Shown here: positions 65 through 30,052 of the stretch, one piece after another | How positions within the stretch are numbered: the stretch's first letter is position 1 | How the letters are laid out: each line of letters opens with the position of its first letter | From: Seleniivibrio sp. | GTDB lineage: Bacteria > Chrysiogenota > Deferribacteres > Deferribacterales > Geovibrionaceae | Assembly: GCF_021209385.1 (NCBI RefSeq) | Contig: NZ_JAJOIL010000038.1 | Location: forward strand, 1 to 53,094 | Reading direction: 5' to 3' | Length of the DNA stretch: 53,094 nucleotides | Program-made: the position numbers and the translations under genes | Notes under the pieces: model-generated | Seen by the model: the letters and a program-made list of their open reading frames with translations, nothing else | What the model was told of the DNA's origin: nothing | Database searches by the model: none

Positions 65-1120
65 TCATTTGAAGAGACGCATTATGTCGTTATAAAATGC
101 AAAGAACATTACAAACATGAGAAGCGCCATACCTGCAAGGTTGGCTATTTCACGCACGCGGATGCTCACCGCGCGTCTGGTTATCGCTTCGATTATGAGA
201 AAGAAAATGTGTCCGCCGTCAAGTACCGGAATGGGCAGCAGATTCAGTATGCCGAGGTTTATACTGATAAGCGCCATGAACCCGAAAAATGCCACCGCGC
301 CTGTTTCAGCCGATTCCTTCGCAAGCTGAACGATCATTATGGGACCGCCAAGGGAATCAGCAGGAACTACCTTCTGGAAGAGTTTGACCACGCCTGTGAC
401 CATTAGCACACTTACGTTATACGTCTGCTTTACCCCTTGCGAAACCGCCTGAGGAAACGCAAGGCTGACCTTCTCGTTCTTCTCTCCGCGCATCACGCCC
501 ATGCGTCCGACCTTAACAGCTTCACCGAAGATATTCTTATCTGTTACTGTCTGCGGGGTCACTGTGACCTCAAAGGTACGTCCGCCCCTGTCTATGCCGA
601 GGACAACGGGCTTGCCGCCCTTGCCCTGTATATATTCGCTCATGTCGTCCCAGAACTTCATGCTCACTCCGTCAACGGATATGATCATGTCGCCCTTTGC
701 AAGACCCGCCTGAGCCGCCGCAGAACCTTCCGTCACGCCGCCCACCTCTGTAAGAAATCGGGGCGTGCCGTGCATGAATATCGCTGCGTATATGACTATT
801 GCCAGTATGAAGTTAAAGAAAGGTCCCGCGAAGACAATGAGGAACCTCTGAAAGATGCTTTTATTGTTAAAAGCTCTGTCTGCCTTGTCCTCGTCAACTT
901 CGGAGTCGGGCTGTTCGCCGTACATCTTTACATATCCGCCGAGAGGTATCGCCGAAAGCGCATACTCTGTCTCGCCCTTCTGCCATTTGAAAAGCACGGG
1001 TCCGAAACCTATGGAAAAGCGCTCAACAAGTACGCCTGTGTATTTTGCAAGGAGGAAGTGTCCAAGCTCGTGTATGAAGATGAGAACACCCAGAAGGATG
1101 ACAGCGGAAATTATACCCAT
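65..1120 (-). CDS. rseP: Site-2 intramembrane zinc metalloprotease RseP
   Basis: Polytopic M50-family protease of the inner membrane that cleaves transmembrane segments such as anti-sigma factors or signal-peptide remnants. The zinc motif HELGH is at residues 17-21 within the first membrane helix. A PDZ domain follows at about 115-185, and the conserved NLLPIPVLDGGH motif supplying the third zinc ligand region is at 293-304, followed by a last hydrophobic helix. At 351 residues it is shorter than E. coli RseP because it has one PDZ domain rather than two. Its ATG overlaps the dxr stop (TAATG), so it is translationally coupled as the last gene of the operon. An ECF sigma/anti-sigma pair lies at 20844-21885, but no link between them is shown. 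Confidence 0.95.
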   Translation of the reverse strand: MGIISAVILLGVLIFIHELGHFLLAKYTGVLVERFSIGFGPVLFKWQKGETEYALSAIPLGGYVKMYGEQPDSEVDEDKADRAFNNKSIFQRFLIVFAGPFFNFILAIVIYAAIFMHGTPRFLTEVGGVTEGSAAAQAGLAKGDMIISVDGVSMKFWDDMSEYIQGKGGKPVVLGIDRGGRTFEVTVTPQTVTDKNIFGEAVKVGRMGVMRGEKNEKVSLAFPQAVSQGVKQTYNVSVLMVTGVVKLFQKVVPADSLGGPIMIVQLAKESAETGAVAFFGFMALISINLGILNLLPIPVLDGGHIFFLIIEAITRRAVSIRVREIANLAGMALLMFVMFFAFYNDIMRLFK

Positions 1121-20348: not shown

Positions 20349-20375
20349 TGTAACCTTTGTTCTCCCCGTCCGTTA
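20349..20375 (+). promoter_or_regulatory. Candidate ECF sigma-dependent promoter
   Basis: TGTAACC (20349-20355) and CGTTA (20371-20375) place AAC and CGT exactly 16 bases apart, the common layout of ECF sigma promoters (AAC at -35, CGT at -10). It lies 40 bases upstream of the Gly/Ser-rich gene start. The obvious candidate to read it is the sigma factor encoded two positions downstream at 20844. Confidence 0.55.
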
Positions 20376-20414
20376 TGAAAGTACAAACACCCTATAGATA
20401 CAAGGAGACATACA

Positions 20415-20798
20415 ATGAGAAAAATTATTGCAGTTTTAACAGTGGCTATGATGGTTCTGGCAGCGGGACAGGCACTCGCTAGAGGCGGCATGGGCGGACA
20501 TGGCGGCGGAAACGGACACGGCGGTTCTTCTTCATCAGGAGGCTCTTCATCAGGAGGCTCTTCATCAGGTGGTTCCTCCTCCGGTGGTTCCTCCTCCGGT
20601 GGCTCATCTTCAGGCGGCGGCTCTCCTTCATCTGGAGGCAGCTCTTCATCTGGCGGACATGGCGACGGCACAGGCACACACTCCATGGACGGAACGGGTC
20701 TCGGCAGTATGTACAACCATGACATAAACCACCCCGCCACAGACGACGACACCACTGACGAAACAACAACAGAAACTGATCCTTCTTTCTCAATGTAG
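20415..20798 (+). CDS. Secreted Gly/Ser-repeat protein
   Basis: No family is recognised. The 127-residue protein has a clear signal peptide (about 1-22, ending ALA). A Gly/His-rich stretch (RGGMGGHGGGNGHGG) and six tandem SSSGG repeats (residues 39-68) follow. The tail is Asp/Thr-rich and acidic. The low-complexity composition suggests a flexible, disordered envelope or extracellular polypeptide, and the GGHGG pattern could bind metal. A good Shine-Dalgarno (AAGGAGA) and the ECF-type promoter upstream support real expression. A second signal-peptide protein with a Gly/His-rich tail lies at 22195, bracketing the sigma/anti-sigma genes. Confidence 0.75.
   Translation: MRKIIAVLTVAMMVLAAGQALARGGMGGHGGGNGHGGSSSSGGSSSGGSSSGGSSSGGSSSGGSSSGGGSPSSGGSSSSGGHGDGTGTHSMDGTGLGSMYNHDINHPATDDDTTDETTTETDPSFSM
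20529..20618 (+). repeat. Six tandem 15-base repeats encoding SSSGG
   Basis: In-frame 15-base units (variants of TCTTCATCAGGAGGC) repeat six times inside the secreted Gly/Ser protein gene. The first copies are nearly identical and later ones (TCCTCCTCCGGTGGT) drift at synonymous positions. Such an array can expand or contract by slippage in whole codon multiples. Confidence 0.85.
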
Positions 20799-20808
20799 TG
20801 AGAAACAT

Positions 20809-20837
20809 TTGGCGGGGGCTTCCGCCCCCGCTATAAT
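20809..20837 (+). promoter_or_regulatory. Sigma-70 promoter ahead of the ECF gene with hairpin spacer
   Basis: TTGGCG (20809-20814), exactly 17 bases, then TATAAT (20832-20837) form a plausible promoter. Its spacer is the GC-rich hairpin listed separately. The predicted transcription start falls at about 20844, the A of the sigma factor ATG, implying a leaderless message. No Shine-Dalgarno is seen before that ATG (AATAAGCAT). Confidence 0.45.
20812..20831 (+). terminator. GC-rich hairpin after the Gly/Ser protein gene
   Basis: GCGGGGGC-TTCC-GCCCCCGC is a perfect 8-base stem with a 4-base loop, 14 bases beyond the stop codon. It is followed by TATAATAAG rather than a T-run, so it could be an attenuating or mRNA-stabilising hairpin rather than a full terminator. 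Confidence 0.55.
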
Positions 20838-20843
20838 AAGCAT

Positions 20844-21326
20844 ATGAAACACAACACAGCACTGACGGCTTTTTTTGAACAGAACAGGCAAAAGCTTTTT
20901 GCCTATCTGGTAAGACTTTCCGGAGACACCCACGAAGCGGAGGACGTCTTTCAGGACACGTTTATCAGATATGCGCAGTCCTATCCTGATCAGCAAAATC
21001 CGGCACTGCTTTTCACAGTGGCAAAGAGCATTTTTCTTGACGGCAGACGCAGACACAGGTTTTCCGAAATGCCGGAAGGGTTTGAACCGACTGATGAACA
21101 AAGCCCCGAAAGCATTGTGATGTGCCGACAGGCACAGAACAGGCTTAAAACTGCCATGAACAGTCTTCCGCAGGAAGAACGGGAACTCCTTGCAATGGCA
21201 GGAGGGGAAGGACTGAAATACGATGAGATAGCAAAGGCGGCGGGGATATCCGTTGCCAATGTTAAGGTCAGGGTACACAGAGCAAGACAACGCCTGCGTT
21301 CCTTACTGGAGGTTTCCGATGGATGA
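20844..21326 (+). CDS. ECF-family RNA polymerase sigma factor
   Basis: Alternative sigma factor of 160 residues with the two-domain ECF layout. Sigma region 2 is at about residues 8-75 (YLVRLSGDTHEAEDVFQDTFIRY) and region 4 at about 105-155 (LPQEERELLAMAGGEGLKYDEIAKAAGISVANVKVRVHRARQRL). It is most like the small ECF proteins paired with membrane anti-sigma factors. The next gene overlaps it by eight bases and has an anti-sigma-like N-terminus. The ATG lacks a Shine-Dalgarno but sits exactly where a promoter directly upstream would start transcription. Likely targets include the AAC-N16-CGT promoter at 20349. Confidence 0.9.
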   Translation: MKHNTALTAFFEQNRQKLFAYLVRLSGDTHEAEDVFQDTFIRYAQSYPDQQNPALLFTVAKSIFLDGRRRHRFSEMPEGFEPTDEQSPESIVMCRQAQNRLKTAMNSLPQEERELLAMAGGEGLKYDEIAKAAGISVANVKVRVHRARQRLRSLLEVSDG

Positions 21327-21885
21327 CAGAGATTTACTTATAAGCCAGTATATCGACAACGAACTGAGCCTTGAAGAAAAGGCTGAATTTGTCAAAGAGA
21401 TAAATATTGACGATGCTTTCTGCGCCGAAACACTCTCTATGCTGGACAGTGAGCTTCTCATGGCGGGCATGATACCTGATGCGCCCCCTGTTCCTGAGAT
21501 AAAGCCAAAACGCGGACGCATCCTCACACCGGCGTCGGTTATGTCATTCACAGCGCTGGCAGCGTCACTTCTGGTTGCTTTCAAAGTTTTCATGTTTACG
21601 CCGGAGGCAGCACAGCAGCCGACCGACAGATACAGATTTGTCATACACGTTCCCGAAGCGCAGCATGTTGCCCTTGCCGGAAGTTTCTCCGACTGGCAGA
21701 GTATAGACATGCGTCCGGTGGGCAACGGATACTGGCAGGTCAGCGTTCCTCTGGAAAAGGGCGAATATACTTACACATACATACTTGACGGAAAAATAAA
21801 AATAGCCGACCCTGCTTCACCTGCGAAACAGGTTGACGATTTCGGCGGAGAAAACTCCGTAATAACCATAGGGAGCGATATCTGA
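21319..21885 (+). CDS. Membrane anti-sigma-like protein with CBM48 domain
   Basis: 188 residues from the ATG at 21319, preferred over the upstream in-frame ATG because CTGGAGG spaces to it and it overlaps the sigma gene stop. Residues 1-40 (LISQYIDNELSLEEKAEFVKEI) resemble the N-terminal helices of anti-sigma factors, without the zinc HxxxCxxC motif. A membrane helix follows at about 70-93. Residues 105-185 match the CBM48/isoamylase early-set glycogen-binding domain (VALAGSFSDW, then YTYTYILDG). The predicted topology puts the anti-sigma part inside and the carbohydrate-binding-like part in the periplasm. Family knowledge supports each domain; the signalling role is inferred. Confidence 0.75.
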   Translation: MDDRDLLISQYIDNELSLEEKAEFVKEINIDDAFCAETLSMLDSELLMAGMIPDAPPVPEIKPKRGRILTPASVMSFTALAASLLVAFKVFMFTPEAAQQPTDRYRFVIHVPEAQHVALAGSFSDWQSIDMRPVGNGYWQVSVPLEKGEYTYTYILDGKIKIADPASPAKQVDDFGGENSVITIGSDI

Positions 21886-22193
21886 AATATTTCACGATTC
21901 TGCTCGTTATCTTTATGACAGGCTGCGCAGCGGCCGAATTTAAAACGGAAGGCTCTGTAATGAAGGGATATTTCCGTGTAAAAGACGCGAACAGCGTAGC
22001 GTTCTACTCGTCTTCAGACGGGTTCACAAAGAACGAAGCCGTTAAAGACGGCAAAAAATGGACGGTGACAGTGCCTAAAAACGGCGAATTCACCTATTAC
22101 CTCGAAAAAGACGGCGAAATCTACGTCCCTGACTGCGAAATGAAACAGCAGGACGATTTCGGCGGAACCGTCTGTGTTTATCAGGAGGATTGA
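21882..22193 (+). CDS. Small lipoprotein related to the CBM48 domain of its neighbour
   Basis: The first ATG (21915) would leave only MTGC ahead of the lipobox cysteine, too short for a signal peptide. Starting at CTG (21882) gives a proper lipoprotein signal (KYFTILLVIFMTGC) of 15 residues before the Cys. It overlaps the previous stop as CTGA and has AGGGAG just upstream, so CTG is proposed as the start (103 residues). The mature part mirrors the end of the preceding protein (W-V-VP, GE-TY, DG-I, KQxDDFGG), suggesting a duplicated early-set domain. It may assist the neighbouring membrane protein in the periplasm. Function unknown. Confidence 0.65.
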   Translation: MKYFTILLVIFMTGCAAAEFKTEGSVMKGYFRVKDANSVAFYSSSDGFTKNEAVKDGKKWTVTVPKNGEFTYYLEKDGEIYVPDCEMKQQDDFGGTVCVYQED

Positions 22194-22194
22194 A

Positions 22195-22989
22195 ATGAAG
22201 TTTCTGGCAATATGCATCATGATGCTGACAGCCGCAACGGCGTTTGCCGATATATACGATGACCTTGGGCGCACTGCCGAGAAGAACGGTGCGGAAAAGA
22301 CGCTGACGGCAAAGCTTACGGAACGCACCAGAGAGGCGAAATATTCTCAGGAAAGCATTTCCGCCATTGAGAACGCACTGAGCGTGCAGATAGGCATGTC
22401 CGCAACAAGAGTCAGCGAAAAGGTGCTTGAGGGAATAGCAAAACGCGTTCAACAGCAGGCGGTTGCAAACGCCGCGCTTAAAGTAAGAGCGCGCTATGAA
22501 ACGGCATACGCAGTTGCTAAACAGGTCGGATTAAAGGGCAAACAGGCGGAAAACACGGCAGACATAGCCGCGGACGCTCTGGCGGCAGGTGCAAACGAAG
22601 CATCTATGATAAAAACAGCTAAACGCCTCTCCGCAATGCAGAAGGAAAAAGAACAGTACACTGTAGCAGTGATGGCATTCTACAGGGATATGCTCCGCTA
22701 CGGGGTAAAAGAAACAACAGCGGCGAGCATAGCCGACGAATCTCTGAACAATCTGTCTGCGGAACAGATAACCGAATACAGACATCATTTCATGAAAAAT
22801 GCGGGGAACAACGCCCAGAGTATGGCGGAATCCATGTGTGACAGTATTGAACACGGAAATTCTGCATCTTCAATGGGTTCAGGAGGACACAGCGGAAGCG
22901 GCGGACATAGCTCCGGCGGAAGCGGAACAGGCGGCGGTTCAGGCGGCGGCGGACATGGCGGTGGCGGTGGACACGGAGGACAGCACTGA
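22195..22989 (+). CDS. Secreted helical protein with Gly/His-rich tail
   Basis: No family recognised. The ATG at 22195 has AGGAGG six bases upstream and gives 264 residues with a signal peptide (about 1-18, ending AFA). Residues 19-225 are charged and Ala-rich, predicted mostly helical (AAKNAx-type stretches such as VQQQAVANAALKVRARYETAYAV). The last 35 residues are Gly/Ser/His low complexity (GGHSSGGSGTGGGSGGGGHG). The tail resembles that of the secreted protein at 20415, so both may share an export route or partner, possibly the T2SS encoded next door. It closes the five-gene group, six codons or fewer from each neighbour. Confidence 0.7.
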   Translation: MKFLAICIMMLTAATAFADIYDDLGRTAEKNGAEKTLTAKLTERTREAKYSQESISAIENALSVQIGMSATRVSEKVLEGIAKRVQQQAVANAALKVRARYETAYAVAKQVGLKGKQAENTADIAADALAAGANEASMIKTAKRLSAMQKEKEQYTVAVMAFYRDMLRYGVKETTAASIADESLNNLSAEQITEYRHHFMKNAGNNAQSMAESMCDSIEHGNSASSMGSGGHSGSGGHSSGGSGTGGGSGGGGHGGGGGHGGQH

Positions 22990-23057: not shown

Positions 23058-24428
23058 TCAACCCGGTTGTTTTTTTTCACTCAGCCGGAGTGAGATCAAA
23101 GTTTGTTGAGCGCTGTAAAGTGACCGCTGACTGTCAAGGGTCTCCAGATAGCTGTCAACGCCATTGCGGTAGCGTGCTTCCGACAGGGTGTAGCTTTTTT
23201 CATAGGATTTCACCAGACTTTGCTGCGCGTCCATCTGCTCGCCTATATGTCTGCGGAAAGAAAGAGCATCTGCAACCTCACTGAAAGCGGTCTGTATGGT
23301 CTTTTCATAATCTGCAACCTCTATTTTCTTCGATATTTCAGCTACGTCCAGAGAGGCTTTCAACGACCCGGCATTGAAGATCGGCACCGAAACTGACGGC
23401 ACGAAAGACCAGACCTCTGATCCTGAACTGAAAAGGTTTGTCAGCGATGAACTGGCGATTCCTGCTGAAGCCGTCAGCGAGATTGACGGAAAGAATGCCG
23501 CACGGGCTGCACCGATATCCGCATTTGCCGCCTTTAGAGTATGTTCAGCCGACAGAACGTCAGGTCGTTTAAGAAGAATCTCAGAAGGCATGTCAGCAGG
23601 CACAGCCGCCAAGGTTACGTCTGACGGGCTTTCAACCGAATCCGGCAGAAGTTCTTTGGAAACGGCAGTGCCGACAACCAGATTGAGCGCGTTAAGGGAC
23701 TGCTCAAGAAGAACGCTGTAATTCGCTACATCAACCCTTGCACTGTCAACGGTTGCCTGTATCTGGGCAAGATCGAGTGAGGAAACAAGCCCGTACTCCT
23801 TTTTGGCGTTCGTAAGGGACAGGGTTTTCTCTCTGCTTTCCAGAGTCTTTTTCGCAAGATTCAACTGCTGCTGGTAAGCGCCGTATGCAAGCCAGTCCGA
23901 AGCGACCTCGGCAATAAGGCTTATTCTGGTGCTTCTCTGGGTCTCCGATGTGGCGAAGTAGCTTTCAAGGGCTTCGTTTTTGAGGCTTCTGACTTTTCCG
24001 AACAGATCCAGTTCCCAGCTACTGAATCCAACCGACGCCTCTGCGGATCGGCTGACCGAGGTTGAATTTCCCGAACCTGTCAGGCTGCGTGCCGCACTGT
24101 TTGAAACGCTCGCGTCAATGCTCGGAAACAGATCGGCTTCCTGTATGCGGTAAGTCGCCCTCGCCTTTTCAATATTCAGCACAGCAGTGCGTAAATCCCT
24201 GTTATTTTCAAGGGCAAGCTCTATTGTTGACTGTAGTTTTTTATCTGCAAAAACATCACGCCAGCCCATTTCATTAACGGAAACAGTTCCCTTGTCCGCT
24301 TTTTCGTTATTGAACGAAGCGGGAACCGGAGATTCCGGACGGCGGTATTCCGGTGCCATAGTTGCACACCCGACCAGACTGAAGGCTATCATACACGCAA
24401 GGATTGATCTTCTGTATATTGCTTTCAT
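23058..24428 (-). CDS. Outer-membrane efflux lipoprotein (OprM/NodT family)
   Basis: TolC-like channel for the adjacent RND pump. The N-terminus has a lipobox (FSLVGC) and the family start CATMAPEYRRPESPVP. Two duplicated outer-membrane efflux domains follow with long helical segments (LDLAQIQATVDSARVDVANY and RYRNGVDSYLETLDSQRSLYSAQ). The length of 456 residues is normal. It begins one base after the pump stop, so it is the third gene of the marR-mfp-rnd-omf operon. Confidence 0.93.
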   Translation of the reverse strand: MKAIYRRSILACMIAFSLVGCATMAPEYRRPESPVPASFNNEKADKGTVSVNEMGWRDVFADKKLQSTIELALENNRDLRTAVLNIEKARATYRIQEADLFPSIDASVSNSAARSLTGSGNSTSVSRSAEASVGFSSWELDLFGKVRSLKNEALESYFATSETQRSTRISLIAEVASDWLAYGAYQQQLNLAKKTLESREKTLSLTNAKKEYGLVSSLDLAQIQATVDSARVDVANYSVLLEQSLNALNLVVGTAVSKELLPDSVESPSDVTLAAVPADMPSEILLKRPDVLSAEHTLKAANADIGAARAAFFPSISLTASAGIASSSLTNLFSSGSEVWSFVPSVSVPIFNAGSLKASLDVAEISKKIEVADYEKTIQTAFSEVADALSFRRHIGEQMDAQQSLVKSYEKSYTLSEARYRNGVDSYLETLDSQRSLYSAQQTLISLRLSEKKQPG

Positions 24429-24429
24429 A

Positions 24430-27400
24430 TTATATCTTCTCCGATTGTTGTTCGTGTATGCCGCGTTTAAAGATTGTTCGCACTATCACATAAAACACAG
24501 GCACGAAAAATATACCGAACGCCGTTGAAGCTATGGTTCCGCCCAGAACGCCCGTTCCCAGAGAATGACGACCGCCGGAGCCTGCGCCGGAGCTTATCAC
24601 CAGAGGAAAAACCCCAAGCATGAACGCAAAAGAAGTCATAAGTATCGGGCGAAGCCTCATATGCGCCGCCTGAACGGTGGCTTTAAGAAGAGGCATCCCC
24701 TTCTCTTCCAGCTCTTTTGCAAACTCGACGATAAGGATACCGTTTTTCGCCGCCAGACCGATTGTTGCCAGCAGACCGACCTGGAAATAAACGTCGTTGT
24801 TCAGTCCGCGCAAAGTCGTAAACAGAAGCGTACCCACAATACCTATCGGCACTGCCAGCATCACGGAAAAAGGTATCGACCAGCTTTCATAAAGACCCGC
24901 AAGACACAGGAAGATGAAAAGCAGCGATATAGCATACAGATAAGGAGCCTGATTGCCGGACTGCAATTCCTGATAAGACAGGCCCGACCATGAATAGCCG
25001 AAGCCGTTCGGAAGGTCTTTGATCATCTTTGCCATTTCATCCATAGCAGTACCGGAGCTTACTCCGTCCGCCGCCTGTCCGCTGATCTCCATTGACGCAA
25101 AACCGTTGAATCTTGTCAATGATGCCGGCTCGTATTTCCATGAGGTTGATGAGAACGAGGAGAAAGGAACCATATCGCCGTCGCTGTTTTTGACAGACCA
25201 TTTGTCAATGTCCGCAGGCATCATACGCGCGTCCGCCTCGCCCTGTACATAAACTTTCTTTATGTTGTCCTTATTTATGAAGTCATTAATATATGTACTT
25301 CCCACAGCAGTGGAAAGAACGTCGTTAATGTCGCTCTGGCTCAATCCTAGAGCGCCTGCTTTGGAATCGTTTATCTTAACGTCAAATGTCGGCGCGTCTT
25401 CCAGATTGTCGTAACGTACCGACGACAGATTATCATTTTTACCAGCCATGGCGATTACTTTGTCTTTTGCATCAACAAGAGCGTCGTGTCCGGAACCCGC
25501 AAGATCCTGCAATTCAAATGTAAAGCCTGAAGACTGCCCCAGACCGGGTATACCGGAAGGCGATATAGCGAATATCTGCGCATCTTTGAACATGCCGTGC
25601 ACTGTGCCGTTCAACCGTCCGGCGATCTCTCCGGCACTGGCTTCTCTCTCGTCCCAGTCTTTAAGCTTTATAAATCCCATACCTGAGTTCTGCCCACCCC
25701 CTCCCATACTGAATCCGCTAACTGACATAACGGATGCTATCTCCGGCTGAACGGAAGCATATTCGGATATCTGATCCAGCACTTTCTGCGTCTGCTGCTG
25801 GGTTGAACCGGATGGAAGTTTCACCTGCACCATCAACATCCCCTGATCCTCTTCCGGAAGGAATGACGTCGGCAGGTGCATAAACAAAGTGACCATAACA
25901 GCAATGAGTATGCTGTAAATTAAAAGTGCAAACTTCTTTCTGTGCAGTGTCTTATCGACTACCATCTGGTAAAGCCGTGATGATTTATCAAATTTTATAT
26001 TAAACCAGCCGAAAAACCTGCCCAAAGGACCACGCGCACCGCTGTGTCCGCCTTTTTTTATGGGTTTCAGCATGGTTGCACACAATGCAGGGGTAAGGGT
26101 CATTGCAACCAGAACCGAAAGCATCATTGAAGAAGCAATGGTCACGGAGAACTGACGGTATATAACTCCGGTTGATCCGCCGAAAAATGCCATGGGAAGG
26201 AAAACGGCTGTCAGAACAAGGACGATCCCTATCAACGCCCCTTTTATCTGCCCCATGGATTTCTTTGTCGCCTCTTTCGGTGAAAGCCCCTCCTCGCTCA
26301 TGATACGTTCCACGTTTTCAACCACGACAATGGCATCGTCAACCAAAAGCCCTATGGCAAGAACCATGGCGAACATTGTCAGCGTGTTGATGGAATATCC
26401 CAGAGCGGAGAGGATTCCGAAGGTTCCCATAAGAACGACAGGCACTGCAACCGCGGGAATAAGCGTTGCCCTCCAGTTCTGCAGAAACAGATACATGATT
26501 GCAACAACAAGGATTATCGCTTCTATAAGGGTCTGAACCACTTCCTCAATGGATATCTGAACAAACGGGGTTGTATCATATGCCACATGGTAATTCAAAC
26601 CTGCCGGAAAGAAGGGTTTCAGCTCTTTAAGTTTTGCATCCACTATCTTTGAAACGCTTAACGCATTTGCCCCGGATGACAGTTCTATACCCATTCCGGA
26701 AGCATCCTGACCGTTAAATTTACTTATCATCGTATAATCTTCACTGCCAAGCTCCACCTTTGCCACGTCGGAAAGACGTATATCGGAACCGTCAGTCTGA
26801 GTTTTAAGAACTATATTTTTAAATTCATCAACTGTGGTAAGTTTGCTTCTCGCACTGATTGTTGCCGTAAGTTCCTGTTTGTCAACAGCGGGAAGAGAGC
26901 CGAGAGAACCGGCGGCAACGTCCGTATTCTGCGCTTCCACGGCACTGACTATGTCGGAAGGCATCAGAGAATAGGTTCGCATTTTTTCCGGATCCATCCA
27001 GATCCGCATGGAATATTCCGACCCCATGACCCTTATGTTTCCCACACCGTCAAGACGGCTTATCTGATCTTTCAGGGTGGTAACCATATAATCCGCTATA
27101 TCAGTACTGTTCATACTGCCGTTGTCCGACGTAAATGCCAGAACCATGAATATGTTGCCTGAAGATTTCGTTACGGTTACACCGTCATTCTGAACCGATT
27201 GCGGAAGGGATGATTCAGCTTCCTGTAATTTATTCTGTACCTGCACCTGCGCGGTATCGGGATCGGTTCCAGCTTTGAACGTCAGCGTTATGCTGGAACT
27301 GCCGGACGATGAACTGGAAGACGACATATACAAAAGATTATCCAGTCCCGTCATGCTCTGCTCTATCACCTGAGTAACGGATTTCTCGACAGTATTTGCC

Positions 27401-27558
27401 GATGCACCTGTATAGGTTGAGTTTATGGAAACACTTGGGGGCGCAATATCAGGGTATTGCTCAATGGGAAGAGTGTATATTGAAAAAGCTCCGGCAAGAG
27501 TTATGACAATTGCCAGAACCCACGATAGTATCGGGCGCTCAATGAAAAAATCTGCCAT
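24430..27558 (-). CDS. RND multidrug efflux permease (AcrB/HAE1 type)
   Basis: Proton-driven inner-membrane pump, 1042 residues, with 12 membrane helices and two large periplasmic loops. The N-terminus [20 protein letters not shown] is canonical. The proton-relay aspartates lie in [16 protein letters not shown] and the partner lysine in [14 protein letters not shown]. Repeats of the family motifs occur in both halves, showing an intact gene. HAE1-type pumps export hydrophobic drugs, bile salts or solvents; the exact substrates cannot be told from sequence. It is flanked by its adaptor and outer-membrane channel. Confidence 0.96.
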
Positions 27559-27579
27559 GTCTGTATCCCCTTAAATCAT

Positions 27580-28743
27580 CTATTTGGTAACAGCGGTCTG
27601 CTCGCTGCTTTGTGTTATTTTAACTGTCTGACCTGAAGAAACACTGCTGGCACCGCTGACTATAAGTTTGTCGCCAGCTTTAAGACCTCCGGATACGACC
27701 CAGAAGTTACCGTAATTGCTGTCTGTTCTGATGTTTTGCAAAACAACCTTATTATCATTGCCAACTATTTTAACCTGTGGTTCACCCTTACTGTCTCTGG
27801 TCACAGATGAAACAGGAACAAGAATTGCCTGTGTGTTTACAGCCATAGGCAAAACAGCCTGCACATAGGTACCAGGTAAAAGAAGGTTTTCAGGATTAGG
27901 AACCTTTACGCGCAATTTGACGCTTCCCGTCCCCGTGTCCACAGTCGCACCTACAAAATTAAGCTCCCCTTTGTGCTGATATTCCGAACCGTCTTCAAGG
28001 ATTATTTTAACCGGAATAGTACCCTGAACCTCAGACAGATCACCTGCTTTTATCCGTTTTCTCAACGCGAGCAGTCTTGCGCTTGTTTCTGTCACGTCAA
28101 CATAAATAGGATCAAGCTGCTGAATGGTGGTCAGAGCATCCTCCTGATCCGCCGTTACAAGAGCACCAGGGGTATATGCAGAAGTGCTGATCCTTCCGGA
28201 GATAGGCGCTGTTATTCGGGTATATCCCAGATTTATGGCAGCAGTTTCCAAGGCGGCCTTTGCAGAAATAACCGCAGCGGCTGCCTGTTTATATTCAGAT
28301 ACAGCATCCGCAGCATCCTGTTTGCTGACAGCCTCTATACCGACCAGACTCTGATACCTTTCAGCCTTCTGACGCGCAGATTCAACAGCGGCATCCGCCT
28401 TGGCAAGATCGCCCTCGGCGCTGTCATACGCTGCCCGATATTTTTTAGAATCCAGCAGGTAGAGAACCTGACCCTCTTTAACCTGCTGTCCCTCCTGAAA
28501 CATACGTTTCTGTATAATTCCCCCGACCTGCGGACGGACGTCGGAGACCGTATAAGCCACAGTGCGGCCGTTAAGAGACTGTTCTATCTTGATATTATGT
28601 TTTACCAACGACGTAACGGACACTTCCTGAACCTGTTCAGGGTTATTTGCCGTCGGCGGCTGTGAACAGCCTGAAAGAATAAATAATGACGCAATAACAC
28701 ATTGCGCCGCTCTTCTCTTGAATATTGCTTTGATATCACACAT
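27580..28743 (-). CDS. RND periplasmic adaptor (membrane fusion lipoprotein)
   Basis: AcrA-type adaptor joining the RND pump to the outer-membrane channel. The start at 28743 is preferred over one six codons upstream because AAAGGTG precedes it. A lipobox (FILSGC) is followed by the biotinyl-lipoyl hairpin (VGGIIQKRMFQEGQQVKEGQ), a long coiled-coil alpha-hairpin (about 95-165), the second lipoyl half (INLGYTRITAPISGRI) and the beta-barrel. Length 387 residues. It lies immediately downstream of marR and 21 bases before the pump gene. Confidence 0.94.
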   Translation of the reverse strand: MCDIKAIFKRRAAQCVIASLFILSGCSQPPTANNPEQVQEVSVTSLVKHNIKIEQSLNGRTVAYTVSDVRPQVGGIIQKRMFQEGQQVKEGQVLYLLDSKKYRAAYDSAEGDLAKADAAVESARQKAERYQSLVGIEAVSKQDAADAVSEYKQAAAAVISAKAALETAAINLGYTRITAPISGRISTSAYTPGALVTADQEDALTTIQQLDPIYVDVTETSARLLALRKRIKAGDLSEVQGTIPVKIILEDGSEYQHKGELNFVGATVDTGTGSVKLRVKVPNPENLLLPGTYVQAVLPMAVNTQAILVPVSSVTRDSKGEPQVKIVGNDNKVVLQNIRTDSNYGNFWVVSGGLKAGDKLIVSGASSVSSGQTVKITQSSEQTAVTK

Positions 28744-28764
28744 TATTTCACCTTTGTTCATGGA

Positions 28765-29253
28765 TTATTTTTTATTTAAAGTCAGATCAATATCCGGTCT
28801 ATCCTGCGGAAGGTAACAGTTGACCTTAACCAGAACTTCTATAAATTCTGCCCTCAGTTCATCAGACAGACCGGAAAGCAGCCTGTCATACACACTGATT
28901 GTCAGATCTCTTAAACCCTCAAGTACTTTTTCGCCTCTTGTCGTGATAAATACCCATTTTTTACGATGATCTTTTTTATCCGTTACCCTGCGCACCATTC
29001 TGTTCTTTACAAGACTGTCCACCAGTTTGCTCGCGGCATTGTGTGAAATAGAAGACTGATCCGCTATCATAGATATTGTCTGCGGTCCGCACTTGAGAAG
29101 GTAAAACAAAGTATTGTACTGATTGAACGAATAATTAGAGTAGCGGATATTTTTGCTTAAATAGGGAAAGATGTAAGATGTGGCAAGTCCGTGCAGCTGA
29201 TCCATCAACTCTCCCAAAGTTCTCTGTTCCTGATTTTCTGTTTCTGCTGTCAA
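28765..29253 (-). CDS. MarR-family transcriptional regulator
   Basis: Winged-helix regulator of 162 residues. The DNA-binding region holds SMIADQSSISHNAASKLVDSLVKNRMVRRVTDKKDHRKKWVFITTRGE, the typical MarR recognition helix plus wing. The start appears to be TTG at 29253 with GAGG upstream. It is the first gene of the RND efflux operon and very likely represses it. Inducers are unknown. The leader contains an 11-base direct repeat that touches the start codon. Confidence 0.88.
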   Translation of the reverse strand: MTAETENQEQRTLGELMDQLHGLATSYIFPYLSKNIRYSNYSFNQYNTLFYLLKCGPQTISMIADQSSISHNAASKLVDSLVKNRMVRRVTDKKDHRKKWVFITTRGEKVLEGLRDLTISVYDRLLSGLSDELRAEFIEVLVKVNCYLPQDRPDIDLTLNKK

Positions 29254-29467: not shown

Positions 29468-30052
29468 TTGACCAAAAAACAGAAGATACTGCGCGAAGCC
29501 GCAAGGCTTTTTGCTGAAAAGGGTTTCATCGAAACCAGCACACAGGAGATAGCCGAGGCGGCAGAAACCGCCACCGGAACCATCTTTTACCATTTCGCCA
29601 CCAAAGAGGGGATACTGAAAGAGATATACGTTAACCTCATTAACGAATATCTCGAAACCATGAAGCAGGTATCCGCATCATCGGAAAACGGGCTTTCCGC
29701 AGTGGAAAAGGTACTTCGTATGCACTTCGCGTTCTCAAGAGACTACCGCGCGGAATTCACCGTTTGCCATAGGGACATGCCCGCCCAGATAGTCTTTGAC
29801 GACAACCGCAGGAACACAATGCGCAGAAACACCGACATAAGCATAACCATTGTGAAAGAAGCGATCGAAAGAGGTATAGCCGACGGCTCCATAAAGCCTG
29901 ATGCAGACCCCGTTAACGATGCAAAACTCATAAAGGCGATGCTGTTGGGTACTGCCAGACTGACACACCTTCACATGACAGAGTTTGACGATGCGGAGAA
30001 GACAACATGCGATTTCTGCATGTCCGCACTCAGAAACAGAGGTAAAGAATGA
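29468..30052 (+). CDS. TetR/AcrR-family repressor
   Basis: 194-residue regulator with the N-terminal helix-turn-helix KKQKILREAARLFAEKGF then TSTQEIAEAAETATGTIFYHFATKEGIL, and a variable C-terminal ligand domain containing CDFC near the end. The start is TTG at 29468 with AGGTGAG close upstream. It overlaps the next gene by four bases and heads the tolC-like-emrA-emrB operon. The palindrome over its promoter predicts self-control and control of the pump genes. Confidence 0.9.
   Translation: MTKKQKILREAARLFAEKGFIETSTQEIAEAAETATGTIFYHFATKEGILKEIYVNLINEYLETMKQVSASSENGLSAVEKVLRMHFAFSRDYRAEFTVCHRDMPAQIVFDDNRRNTMRRNTDISITIVKEAIERGIADGSIKPDADPVNDAKLIKAMLLGTARLTHLHMTEFDDAEKTTCDFCMSALRNRGKE

Follow-up and report, generated by a model that had tools for sequence, protein, structure and literature searches.

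An ECF Sigma Factor Operon with a Putative Anti-Sigma Factor Bearing an AMPK-Type Domain and a Predicted Narrow Regulon

Introduction

What does an ECF sigma factor control, and to what does it respond, when its neighbors encode low-complexity secreted proteins and a membrane protein whose outer domain resembles the glycogen-binding domain of AMPK? The question is raised by five genes in a stretch of DNA of 53,094 nucleotides (the window), which is contig 42 of a 2.9-Mb genome; Seleniivibrio woodruffii is the nearest named relative, judged by one of the five products (protein C, 83% identical). To our knowledge, few envelope-stress systems have been studied in the Deferribacterota and Desulfobacterota. 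We describe here the products of the five genes, their conservation, the promoter that they appear to share, and a circuit that would account for these features.

The Operon and Its Products

Positions 20349–22989 of the window form an operon of five tightly packed genes (A to E), all on the plus strand and all with open reading frames; both the coordinates and the packing agree with a preliminary description of this DNA, which sets the left end at 20349, where the promoter motif discussed below begins. Gene A (20415–20798) encodes a Gly/Ser-rich secreted protein of 127 amino acids (27% Gly) with a signal peptide and a DGTG motif. The only Rfam match, to a snoRNA within gene A on the minus strand, was sub-threshold and is taken as chance. 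Gene B (20844–21326) encodes an ECF sigma factor of 160 amino acids, in which the Sigma70_r2 (residues 10–72, E=1.6e-9) and Sigma70_r4_2 (residues 99–151, E=2e-15) domains score above the Pfam cut-offs and the sigma70-ECF model TIGR02937 also matches above its cut-off; as is characteristic of ECF sigma factors, it has sigma2 and sigma4 domains only, joined by a linker of fewer than 50 residues. The start of gene C (21319–21885; 188 amino acids) overlaps the end of gene B. It is followed by gene D (21882–22193; 103 amino acids), whose product is a lipoprotein carrying a degenerate form of the AMPK-CBM domain, and by gene E (22195–22989; 264 amino acids), whose secreted product combines an alpha-helical repeat with a Gly/His-rich tail. 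The preliminary description had recognized two signal-peptide proteins with Gly-rich regions (A and E), an ECF sigma factor, a one-helix protein with a CBM48-like domain, and a small lipoprotein homologous to that domain; the sequences of A and E, the Pfam domains of B and C, and the profile and fold comparisons of D given below bear out each of these assignments.

Protein C has a single hydrophobic segment at approximately residues 74–93 and, beyond it, ends in an AMPK-beta/CBM48 domain that is predicted to lie in the periplasm. This domain scores above cut-off with both AMPK1_CBM (38.2 bits) and CBM_48 (32.0 bits) in Pfam. The N-terminus is anti-sigma-like, resembling zf-HC2 without its zinc ligands; in the window the match (E=0.0057) is below the Pfam cut-off. 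Of three divergent C proteins compared in the same way, two (L176 and L179), with the same layout, score above it. A sigma gene stands next to that of C in all 80 of the best loci (see below), and C is a putative anti-sigma factor that would hold or inhibit B.

Protein D carries the lipobox ...FMTGC and probably starts at a CTG codon (21882–21884) that overlaps the stop codon of C, where relatives outside the close group have TTG or ATG. Its direct sequence match to C is weak; a profile-profile comparison (hhalign, 98.8%) confirmed that it is homologous to the domain of C. Its predicted fold (mean pLDDT 87) has 41 Foldseek matches at E≤0.001, and among those listed at this threshold all are AMPK-type carbohydrate-binding domains; comparison with PDB sequences gave no credible match. 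The Trp that corresponds to AMPK W100 is replaced in D by Phe or Tyr, and there are two invariant cysteines (C85 and C98) in addition to the lipid-anchored one.

For E, a helical-repeat body is predicted with high confidence, and after it comes a disordered tail with 24 Gly within 45 residues; His is present in the tails of both A and E. In a Foldseek search against solved structures E had no match at E≤0.001, the best aligned chains being designed helical repeats, a result that neither identifies a known fold nor establishes a new one.

Between A and B lies a G+C-rich hairpin (GCGGGGGC-TTCC-GCCCCCGC, 20812–20831, plus strand). Of 20 loci, 19 keep a stem between A and B that is better than in shuffled sequences, and 17 different stem sequences occur in this set. 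The hairpin of the window has no T-run, and in one genome (G010) the stem is terminator-like and B has a motif copy of its own. The hairpin after A may allow its product, which would be abundant, to accumulate above the level of the sigma factor. A sigma-70-like sequence, TTGGCG-N17-TATAAT (20809–20837), overlies the hairpin, at a rate that equals the chance expectation for the region.

Conservation across Two Phyla

Among 84,980 species genomes scanned, 387 loci encode a relative of C. The best 80 of these 387, from the Deferribacterota and Desulfobacterota, have the sigma gene adjacent in every case, D in 77, and E in 74, several of the missing D and E genes being accounted for by contig ends; in four of them E, or D and E together, lies upstream of the sigma gene. 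Within the phylum of the window, 24 of 51 genomes have C and 23 have E, each gene occurring in 9 of 20 genera. Genes B, C, D, and E stand together in this order in the phylum loci that were read. Gene A precedes B in most of these and in most carries DGTG...DGTGFG; among the phylum genomes, three from a single family, and also G001, yielded no A gene.

In the Desulfobacterota, a match to C at E≤1e-10 is present in 94 of 395 genomes. Only about 19 of these matches are full-length C proteins; most of the others cover just the CBM part. Eight divergent loci were read, and in seven an ECF sigma factor, a protein with a CBM48 tail, and an E homologue are encoded together; the eighth (L177) has only an E-like match. 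A D-like protein is encoded upstream of the sigma gene in three of the divergent loci (L173, L174, and L178). Loss of the gene order in relatives, which the preliminary description had named as a finding that would count against the group, was looked for, and the result leaves the group standing, gene content being conserved across two phyla.

The flanking genes vary from genus to genus. The suggestion that the neighboring T2SS may export the Gly-rich products is not supported by this comparison, nor is a functional link to MsrAB, since both adjoin the module only in close relatives; the neighbors differ elsewhere, so that T2SS and MsrAB are not taken as parts of the unit. In the window, E is separated from a TetR gene (29468–30052) by a stretch (23058–29253) that holds a MarR-like gene and an operon for RND efflux, whereas in three genomes (G026, G027, and G028) the TetR gene directly follows E, so that this stretch was either gained here or lost there.

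The Outer Domain of C

The closest domain to that of C among solved structures is the glycogen-binding domain of the AMPK beta subunit. In AMPK beta-1, residues W100, K126, W133, L146, and T148 touch the sugar and matter for glycogen binding, which was reduced by every mutation tested at the contact residues (PMC2642990); N150 is likewise named as critical (PMC4032982). We compared these six residues with their equivalents in 103 C proteins. Those of W100 and N150 are kept in all 103, and the other four have changed: K126 is mostly Ser, Thr, or Ala, W133 is in most cases a polar residue or Val, T148 is generally Gly, and L146 is Phe in 100 of the 103. Given the loss of K126, W133, and T148 and the general replacement of L146 by Phe, a standard alpha-glucan site in C is unlikely, as judged from these alignments; another ligand is possible.

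The preliminary description had C sensing a polysaccharide through the CBM48 fold. The fold is real, but with two of six AMPK contacts kept across the 103 proteins the ligand is in doubt. As a full explanation, this would have C detect an alpha-glucan or another envelope or extracellular polysaccharide in the manner of RsgI, the Gly-rich proteins being the response. Anti-sigma factors with carbohydrate-binding modules are indeed known (RsgI; PMC4711584, PMC12203970), and both the domain scores and the invariance of the W100 and N150 equivalents fit such a role; the lost K126, W133, and T148 equivalents, at positions of the kind whose mutation weakens glycogen binding in AMPK (PMC2642990), do not fit it, nor is any glycoside hydrolase or transporter conspicuous among the recurrent flanking genes. 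We consider sensing of a carbohydrate unlikely.

A sugar site that is half lost would also be expected if the domain were a mere folded plug, or a handle for proteolysis, with no specific ligand, and if the signal were general envelope damage transmitted by proteases. Genes for RseP-type proteases are general, and the window has one (65–1120, minus strand). Against such a plug stand the strict conservation of the Trp, the Asn, and a DxFGxxNS motif in C across two phyla, and the duplication of the domain as D in nearly all loci; these features suggest a specific partner for the domain, and we give the plug explanation little credence.

Promoter Motif and Predicted Regulon

A motif search predicts an ECF-type promoter, TGTAACC-N15-CGTTA (TGTAACCTTTGTTCTCCCCGTCCGTTA), at 20349–20375 on the plus strand. 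Nearly every Deferribacterota locus has the motif, or a near-form of it, ahead of A or, if A is missing, ahead of B. ECF sigma factors characteristically recognize AAC at −35 and CGT at −10 and regulate themselves positively (PMC8103513), and the motif, lying before the sigma factor's own operon, appears to follow this pattern.

The form TGTAAC-N16-CGTT occurs 128 times in the 80 loci (1.43 Mb of strand), compared with 3 times for the reversed control, and is thus about 40 times commoner. Assigned by script to the gene downstream, 52 of these sites precede the sigma gene, 31 E, 15 DGTG-type genes, 1 a DUF2202 gene, and 1 C/D; most of the remaining 28, inspected by eye, precede genes for small Gly/DG-rich secreted proteins or copies of E truncated by the end of a contig. 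Six of the 80 loci have no site, and in five of the six the sigma gene lies no more than 731 bases from a contig end. One site (G052, L163) has no evident gene downstream. In the Desulfobacterota, genes of the DGTG type are repeatedly found next to the module. The conserved gene content, together with one motif before A, sigma, E, and the Gly/DGTG genes, supports at the sequence level the suggestion of the preliminary description that the sigma factor controls Gly-rich secreted proteins.

The exact pattern TGTAAC-N16-CGTTA has a single match in the 2.9-Mb genome of the window, that at 20349–20375; allowing one mismatch adds six sites, compared with four for the control, which is about the control rate. 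A related pattern has 17 sites across the phylum; module loci account for 12, including one before E. In D. alkanivorans, two sites lie away from the module, and a cytochrome b561-PepSY gene follows one of them. A few additional sites are present in the larger Desulfobacterota genomes, so the regulon may be wider there.

Several other genes accompany the module or the motif. Genes for DUF2202 proteins, which we take to be ferritin-like, stand beside DGTG-type genes at the module in six Desulfobacterota loci (L098, L106, L110, L123, L127, and L142), several apparently behind the same motif. Motif sites are followed by secreted proteins with repeated DGSC motifs in L154 (7357, minus strand) and L158 (7350, minus strand), and a similar DGSC-type protein is encoded near a divergent module (L173, 567–890, minus strand). 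Two similar PAS-like-looking proteins, behind sites in L101 (6289, minus strand) and L129 (4237, minus strand), are possible further members of the regulon.

A circuit for metal or redox stress, in which the Gly/His-rich secreted proteins and neighboring DUF2202 proteins bind metal and C senses the consequence, could draw on these DUF2202 genes, on the site before the cytochrome b561-PepSY gene, and on the histidines of the A and E tails, but DUF2202 was not found in the genome of the window and neither A nor E has a conserved metal site, and we think it very improbable.

A Proposed Circuit

We propose that the module is an autoregulated ECF sigma circuit of ancient origin whose regulon is very narrow, and in which C would act as the sensor and D and/or E would feed back on it; we place the probability of this reading at about 0.6. 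In such a circuit C would keep sigma factor B at the inner membrane, and an event in the periplasm or at the surface, acting on the outer domain of C, would release it, probably by regulated proteolysis. The RseP-type site-2 protease of the window, whose gene lies beside dxr and other housekeeping genes, is a candidate for cleaving C. The freed sigma factor would transcribe A to E from TGTAACC-N15-CGTTA, and the outputs would be low-complexity envelope or surface proteins. The loop would close if D and/or E, on the outer side, bound the domain of C or competed for its ligand, somewhat as RseB gates RseA; neither D nor E has a Pfam match to an RseB-like (MucB/RseB) periplasmic regulator.

More tentatively, the AMPK-type domain may be a protein-protein sensor that counts or checks the secreted products without any sugar, the sigma factor controlling essentially its own sensor, D, and the secreted proteins. 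This is a possibility that we would not yet favor.

If the circuit is as proposed, it provides a candidate regulator for the Gly/DGTG secreted families and the E proteins, and possibly for the DUF2202 proteins, all of which lack a known role, and its defined promoter would allow targets to be read from Deferribacterota and Desulfobacterota genomes.

Comparison with Known Systems

The preliminary description considered the combination of domains and its output to be undescribed, and in the literature searched, which covered CBM48/AMPK1_CBM domains in anti-sigma factors, Gly-rich ECF targets, and DUF2202, we likewise found no description of this unit. On present evidence, which is that of sequence, we file the module as a variant of ECF sigma/anti-sigma systems. 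With RpoE-RseA-RseB and SigW-RsiW it shares a two-domain ECF sigma factor, an adjacent one-helix anti-sigma-like protein, and an AAC/CGT-type promoter before its own operon. It differs from them in the AMPK-CBM-like outer domain of C, in the apparent inclusion in the circuit of a lipoprotein that carries a copy of this domain and of a helical-repeat protein with a Gly-rich tail, and in a predicted regulon that stays close to the operon itself.

The SigI/RsgI systems of Clostridium thermocellum, whose RsgI proteins are sensors of plant polysaccharides, likewise have a membrane anti-sigma factor with an outer module of carbohydrate-binding type. Here, in contrast, the sigma factor is of the ECF type, the predicted targets are other than polysaccharide-degrading enzymes, the sugar site is half kept, and a Pfam search of protein C gave no RsgI domain match at E≤1. 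With the glycogen-binding domain of the AMPK beta subunit, finally, C shares the fold and the W100 and N150 equivalents, but its domain lacks K126, W133, and T148 and has an extracytoplasmic location. The module offers an instance of the AMPK-type glycogen-binding fold as a putative extracellular signaling domain.
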